This document shows positions 8,031 to 8,672 of a DNA stretch of 64,000 bases, piece after piece. Made by a program: the position numbers and the translations under genes. Position 1 is the stretch's first letter; the number at the start of each line of letters is the position of its first letter. This DNA is from Anaerolinea sp. (lineage in GTDB: Bacteria; Chloroflexota; Anaerolineae; Anaerolineales; Anaerolineaceae): contig PNON01000001.1 of NCBI GenBank assembly GCA_013824865.1, positions 1 through 64,000 of the forward strand, in the 5' to 3' direction. Below the pieces are notes generated by a model, which worked only from the letters and a program-made list of their open reading frames with translations, ran no database searches and had not been told where the DNA came from.

Positions 8031-8057
8031 ATCGACTCAGGGAATTACAAACACACA

Positions 8058-8087
8058 CCGGACGGGAATTTCCCGTCCGGTTCTTTT
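8058..8087 (+). terminator. Rho-independent terminator of groESL
   Basis: Perfect 10-bp stem CCGGACGGGA / TCCCGTCCGG with a 3-nt loop, then TTCTTTT. Confidence 0.9.
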
Positions 8088-8279: not shown

Positions 8280-8324
8280 TAGCAAATTAGCGGTATATCT
8301 AACAGCATTCTTGGAGGTAATCCC

Positions 8325-8672
8325 ATGAAAATTCTATTTATCCTTAACGATTCCCCTTATGGCATTGAGCGGCCATACAATGGGCTGCGACTGGCGATGA
8401 GTCTTTCAAAAAAACCGGATGTTGAACTATCAGTCAGCCTGATGGGGGATGCGGTTCTTTGTGCCAGGAAAGGGCAAAAAACGCCGGATGGTTTTTATAA
8501 CATCGAACGCATGATTCAGAGCCTTGTCCGAAAGGGCATGGTAGCCACCTGAGGCACTTGTTCTGAAGCCCGCGGGCTCGGGCAAAATGATTTGATTGAT
8601 GGCGTTCAGCGAAGTTCTATGGAAGAGCTGGCAGACAAGGTGATTGAAGCGGATAAAGTTTTGGTGTTTTAA
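8325..8672 (+). CDS. DsrE-family protein, candidate selenoprotein with in-frame UGA (Sec76)
   Basis: The ORF track stops at 8552 (75 residues), but translation continues in the same frame for 39 more residues to TAA 8670-8672. Read through the TGA at 8550-8552, the product is 115 residues, the normal length of DsrE/DsrF-like proteins: 'MKILFILNDSPYGIERPYNGLRLA' at the start and 'GTCSEARGLGQNDLIDG ... ADKVLVF' at the end. Homologues have CGTCxxARG at this point; here it would read U-G-T-C, a Sec version of a CxxC redox motif. A hairpin with a bacterial-SECIS-like apical loop begins 16 nt after the TGA. Selenocysteine in DsrE-like proteins is known from prokaryotic selenoproteome surveys (recollection). 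The alternative is a nonsense mutation of the Cys codon. Likely a cytosolic sulfur-transfer or redox protein. Confidence 0.75.
8568..8583 (+). promoter_or_regulatory. Candidate bacterial SECIS hairpin
   Basis: A GCCCG/CGGGC 5-bp stem (8568-8572 with 8579-8583) closes the 6-nt loop CGGGCT. The loop starts 21 nt after the UGA and has G at its second position, which fits the loose bSECIS model (short stem, small apical loop with an early G, placed just after the UGA). An alternative shorter fold (AGCCC/GGGCT) also exists. Structure is judged by eye only. Confidence 0.45.

Follow-up and report, generated by a model that had tools for sequence, protein, structure and literature searches.

The in-frame UGA codon at positions 8550-8552 of the window (the whole 64,000-nucleotide stretch of Anaerolinea sp. 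DNA analysed here) is very probably read as selenocysteine (Sec). The DsrE-family gene that it interrupts, at 8325-8672 on the forward strand, would then encode a YchN-type selenoprotein of 115 residues with Sec at residue 76. Judging from sequence comparisons, we put the probability of actual Sec insertion at about 0.96.

The gene and its reading frame

The frame runs from ATG 8325 to TAA 8670-8672, and the TGA at codon 76 is its sole interruption. A GGAGG sequence on the same strand (8313-8317), 7 nt 5' of the ATG, is the predicted ribosome-binding site. Under the standard code, ORF prediction yields an ORF of 75 aa only. When the UGA is read through, the product matches the DsrE profile PF02635 from position 1 to 116 of 116 (E = 1.2e-22), scoring 80.7 bits against a gathering score of 22.7 bits, so that the first-pass annotation was right that the frame is open on both sides of the TGA and that the two parts make a DsrE-like protein of 115 residues. 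The motif at the site is U76-G-T-C79-S-E-A-R-G, in which Cys79 (codon 8559-8561, forward strand), the second residue of the UxxC pair, is invariant in the homologue alignment. A second gene with a DsrE domain, this one lacking a UGA, is found elsewhere in the genome (L097, G000:C3:65640-65885).

Conservation of the UGA codon

The HMM search for homologues drew on a set with one genome for each species and, in addition, on 400 genomes from the phylum and 400 from the order. Among the 159 distinct homologues that cover the site, the window's included, codon 76 is TGA in 57, TGC in 86 and TGT in 16, and no other codon occurs there. The proposal that the TGA stands where relatives have Cys, to give a U-x-x-C motif, is thus upheld by an alignment of 57 UGA genes and 102 Cys genes. 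Fifty-six of the UGA genes form one group, whose members come from the window's order or are labelled Chloroflexota, except for one MAG labelled Pseudomonadota (L037). In a protein tree of 111 columns and 159 rows, in which few deep forks are resolved, these 56 genes form a single cluster, into which a long branch bearing two Bathyarchaeota Cys genes also falls. The Cys/Sec state requires 3 changes on the tree, versus about 47 when the labels are shuffled.

The remaining UGA gene is from Marinimicrobia (L090, 5001-5333), in a genome that also has selA. It is YchN-type, has the UGA at the same codon, and adjoins MerT-like, ArsR and SQR-like genes. Because its hairpin differs from the others, it possibly represents an independent Cys-to-Sec change.

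Might the gene be a decaying dsrE whose UGA arose by random nonsense mutation, or is a sequencing error? The standard code does predict truncation, to the 75 aa ORF, and further stops are found in some relatives (L172, L146 and L147). On the other hand, the UGA occupies the identical codon in 57 distinct genes, and in nearly all of them the frame is open on both sides. Codon variation 3' of the UGA is of the coding type: mean diversity at codon positions 1, 2 and 3 is 0.22, 0.16 and 0.58 upstream of the UGA, and 0.31, 0.24 and 0.60 downstream of the hairpin described below. Variation at third positions is therefore about 2-3 times that at first and second positions on both sides of the UGA, and the excess on the 3' side argues that selection at the protein level extends past the UGA. 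The hairpin, which covaries, is confined to UGA genes, and the genome has the full Sec machinery. It had been noted at the outset that a random nonsense mutation would hit this one codon only by coincidence; the independent occurrences refute such an origin, and we leave it almost no probability. Nor do related species have TGT or TGC beside a decaying window copy, a pattern that the first-pass annotation had contemplated. The congener genome G551 carries a UGA gene (L141) identical to that of an uncultured Leptolinea sp. (L024), and this gene, like dozens in the order, has TGA and an open frame to either side of it.

Some copies are damaged. L172, in genome G718, is a decaying UGA copy that has lost its start region and gained an extra TAA, and in which the bSECIS core is still visible. 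G718, a member of the family, has only weak selA-like matches, none of them convincing, and decay of L172 is what one would expect if the gene is useless without Sec. L146 (G581) and L147 (G610) are UGA-type copies with extra in-frame stops in genomes that do have selA; they are pseudogenes or assembly errors.

A second stop-based explanation is that termination at the UGA is programmed or regulatory, so that the 75-residue short form is the functional product and readthrough is minor. The short ORF exists, and Sec insertion is often inefficient. However, coding constraint has preserved the C-terminal 40 residues, among them Cys79 and the strands that complete the DsrE fold, and we regard a functional short form as very unlikely.

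The bSECIS hairpin

If the UGA is a Sec codon, a hairpin that binds SelB should follow it closely. The conserved pairing in the window lies at 8568-8583 on the forward strand: five base pairs join 8568-8572 with 8579-8583 around the loop CGGGCT (8573-8578), with G at loop position 2, and the hairpin comes 20 nt after the UGA. The published bSECIS model calls for a loop of 3-9 nt, a stem of 4-16 bp, a G in the first two loop positions, a spacing of 16-37 nt and an MFE of at most -7.5 (PMC13188914). The window hairpin fits this model, with a loop of 6, a stem of 5, the G at position 2, the spacing of 20 nt, and a free energy of -9.0 kcal/mol. Most other UGA genes have the loop AGGTCT, CGGGTT or CGGGAT.

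The hairpin is, across the aligned genes, specific to UGA genes and covarying. All five core pairs are formed in 53 of 57 UGA sequences versus 0 of 101 Cys sequences, the best of which reaches three pairs, and sliding the 3' partners by one base lowers the paired fraction of cells from 97% to no more than 53%. The pair 8570-8581 is C-G in 33 sequences, T-A in 18, T-G in 3 and G-T in 1. This pair joins the third base of codon 82, which is silent (GCC/GCT), with the second base of codon 86 (Gly/Glu), and so silent changes and amino-acid changes move together. The pair 8568-8583 is kept by two-sided changes (G-C, C-G, U-G) in genes where codon 82 specifies Pro or Ser (L143, L147). Residues 86 and 87 differ between the two classes of gene, being mostly Thr or Lys and Asp or Glu in Cys relatives, versus Gly/Glu and Pro/Leu/Gln in UGA genes. 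A separate count on 17 sequences, three of them chosen for unusual pairs, agrees on the covariation.

Folded alone, the window hairpin gives no signal (z = -0.13), and the MFE pairing of the window sequence is slightly the more stable of the two, at -11.0 versus -9.0 kcal/mol for the conserved hairpin. The evidence for the hairpin is therefore comparative. Outer stem pairs found in many relatives are missing from the window hairpin. With the pairing so defined, the initial suggestion of a hairpin with a G-containing loop at bSECIS distance proves sound. One UGA-type gene, L170 (G710), lacks the conserved bSECIS pairing (GCCCGTGGGCTTAAT); an alternative hairpin is possible there.

Selenocysteine machinery of the host

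The host genome assembly (2.1 Mb in 57 contigs, about 86% complete) contains selB (342 bits), selA (530 bits), selD (357 bits) and tRNA-Sec (68 bits). All four scores exceed the curated cut-offs, and ARAGORN likewise calls tRNA-SeC. The search for selA, selB, selC and selD that had been proposed as a check thus found all four, and absence of a Sec system is not the case. Host selD (L009 1140-2090, contig C43) has one in-frame UGA, in SNCAGUASKL, at U16 of the translated stretch, which we take to correspond to Cys17, the catalytic residue of E. coli SelD; by its sequence, selD is itself a selenoprotein gene. The presence of selA fails to discriminate between genomes with the UGA gene (43 of 47) and those without it (27 of 33), as many members of the order have the Sec trait.

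One might suppose instead that UGA is read as another amino acid in this lineage, as Trp (as in code 4) or Gly, since any residue at the UGA would open the frame. UGA is otherwise an ordinary stop, however: TGA terminates 10 of the window's 42 long ORFs, and TGG serves as a codon 237 times, so that UGA is not reassigned. Relatives carry Cys at the site, never Trp or Gly, and the Sec system and a bSECIS are present. The chance that the codon means Trp or Gly is in our estimate negligible. During translation, SelB with Sec-tRNA(Sec) would bind the hairpin just 3' of UGA 8550-8552 and the ribosome would insert Sec at residue 76 rather than stopping.

Fold and active site

What kind of DsrE protein is this? 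By sequence, E. coli YchN (1jx7; profile E = 6e-26) is the nearest protein of solved structure. Fold comparison with an AlphaFold model made from the UGA family (pLDDT 87, pTM 0.81) also gives YchN 1jx7 as the best match (TM 0.83), followed by subunits of DsrEFH and TusBCD. The NCBIfam equivalog scores for TusD, TusC and TusB, at 19.5-22.5 bits, are far below the cut-offs of 49-94, which places the protein in the DsrE family as YchN-type and not as a Tus subunit. E. coli YchN is thus nearest in both sequence and fold and has a CxxC at the same place, the first Cys of which aligns with Sec76, but it has Cys in place of Sec, and a bSECIS is not expected in it.

In the profile alignment the Sec column coincides with the Cys of A. 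vinosum DsrE (2hy5_A) and of E. coli TusD (2d1p_A), that is, the TusD/DsrE Cys78. For DsrE, sulfur was located on Cys78 by mass spectrometry and is then handed to DsrC, and the authors proposed that this Cys marks the active site throughout the superfamily (PMC3397948). The TusD and DsrE subunits of the TusBCD and DsrEFH relays therefore share with the window protein the fold and the position of the persulfide Cys; they differ in being heterohexamer subunits that lack both the second Cys of the CxxC and Sec.

Gene neighbourhoods and possible function

Among the 57 UGA genes, an ArsR-type regulator (several of these regulators carry a fused rhodanese domain) lies within 112 nt upstream in at least 23, and adjoins at least 24 once L090, where the regulator is downstream, is counted. 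A flavoprotein resembling sulfide dehydrogenase, SQR or FCSD adjoins at least 13, and a persulfide-dioxygenase-like protein with a beta-lactamase fold and a rhodanese domain at least 4. The same neighbours (ArsR or ArsR-rhodanese, SQR-like, beta-lactamase-fold plus rhodanese) adjoin at least 50, 28 and 8 of the 102 Cys relatives; all these counts are lower bounds because several loci are short. ArsR repressors of sulfur oxidation that sense sulfane sulfur are known (PMC12423496, PMC10451225).

The window copy itself stands alone, with no sulfur operon around it, behind groES-groEL and an intrinsic-terminator-like hairpin 3' of groEL (8057-8081, forward strand) that divides the chaperonin operon from the DsrE gene. 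The protein therefore probably works with partners encoded elsewhere in the genome; rhodanese-domain genes are present on other contigs.

From the alignment with Cys78 and the neighbouring sulfur genes we infer that Sec76 accepts sulfane sulfur and that Cys79 aids its release. Sec76 would replace the catalytic, sulfur-accepting Cys of DsrE/TusD proteins, and Cys79 would be the likely resolving residue beside it. Sulfane sulfur would be accepted on selenium (Sec-Se-S-) and then passed on or released as sulfide, and this step would serve the handling of sulfide and polysulfide. We lean, without great confidence, towards such sulfur-carrier or persulfide-reductase chemistry.

Might the Sec protein instead be a redox enzyme (a thiol-disulfide oxidoreductase, a peroxidase-like enzyme, or one for handling metals and metalloids) that carries no sulfane sulfur? 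Thiol redox selenoproteins typically have a UxxC motif (PMC1088965), the Marinimicrobia gene has MerT-like and ArsR neighbours, and two others (L017, L021) adjoin a large protein that by eye resembles a heavy-metal ATPase. Yet the fold is that of DsrE and not of thioredoxin, the Sec column is that of the DsrE persulfide Cys, and the neighbours are mainly SQR-, rhodanese- and persulfide-dioxygenase-like. A redox enzyme is, on this evidence, rather unlikely, though it is a more serious contender than any of the other alternatives considered above.

Relation to known DsrE-like selenoproteins

DsrE-like selenoproteins (PF02635, UxxC) are already in the literature, with reports on the Sargasso Sea (2005), Desulfovibrio vulgaris (2006) and the GOS data (2008) (PMC1088965, PMC1794560, PMC2398784), and a 2026 review lists them among families with largely uncharacterised functions (PMC13188914). 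The statement in the first-pass annotation that such proteins had been listed in prokaryotic selenoproteomes was therefore correct (PMC1088965, PMC1794560, PMC13188914). The published proteins (Zhang & Gladyshev 2005/2006/2008 and later lists) resemble the window protein in belonging to Pfam DsrE and in having a U-x-x-C motif and a bSECIS. Published members from Desulfovibrio vulgaris and marine metagenomes (WP_014524487.1, AACY01486889) were compared with it by motif and Pfam only, and both agree. Literature searches on YchN with DsrE, and on Sec in Anaerolineae, returned nothing on the present gene.

Several DsrE subfamilies of Thermodesulfobacteriota also have an in-frame UGA (L203-L222), in the motifs UIPCAKARQ, UIPCIEER, UGVCMKSHG, UGACARARG and UAPCSRARG. 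Where BLAST aligned them with the window protein, these proteins have 24-36% identity over about 100-120 residues. The YchN-type genes of Thermodesulfobacteriota gave no TGA among 15 matches sampled, all of which have Cys. The other motifs, the low identity and the Cys-only state of these YchN-type genes suggest that the Chloroflexota YchN-type clade is separate: it looks like a distinct subfamily of a known kind, given that published members were compared by motif and Pfam only. Because lists of selenoproteins have included DsrE-like UxxC members since 2005, the YchN-type proteins are to be seen as a well-supported subfamily of that kind.

From these sequences, replacement of the active Cys by Sec seems to have happened repeatedly among DsrE proteins. 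A broader proposal, which we offer tentatively, is that the Sec forms are selenium-based sulfur carriers, forming a Se-S adduct in operons that oxidise or detoxify sulfide, and that the exchange of Cys for Sec took place more than once in the DsrE superfamily: in the Chloroflexota YchN-type, possibly in Marinimicrobia, and in other DsrE branches in Thermodesulfobacteriota.

Standard annotation calls the present gene truncated, and the same error is probably found in dozens of Chloroflexota genomes. The gene set supplies a family-specific, covarying bSECIS together with a matched control group of Cys genes. It further allows a question of chemistry to be put to the test, namely what advantage Sec has over Cys where a DsrE sulfur-transfer protein carries its persulfide.
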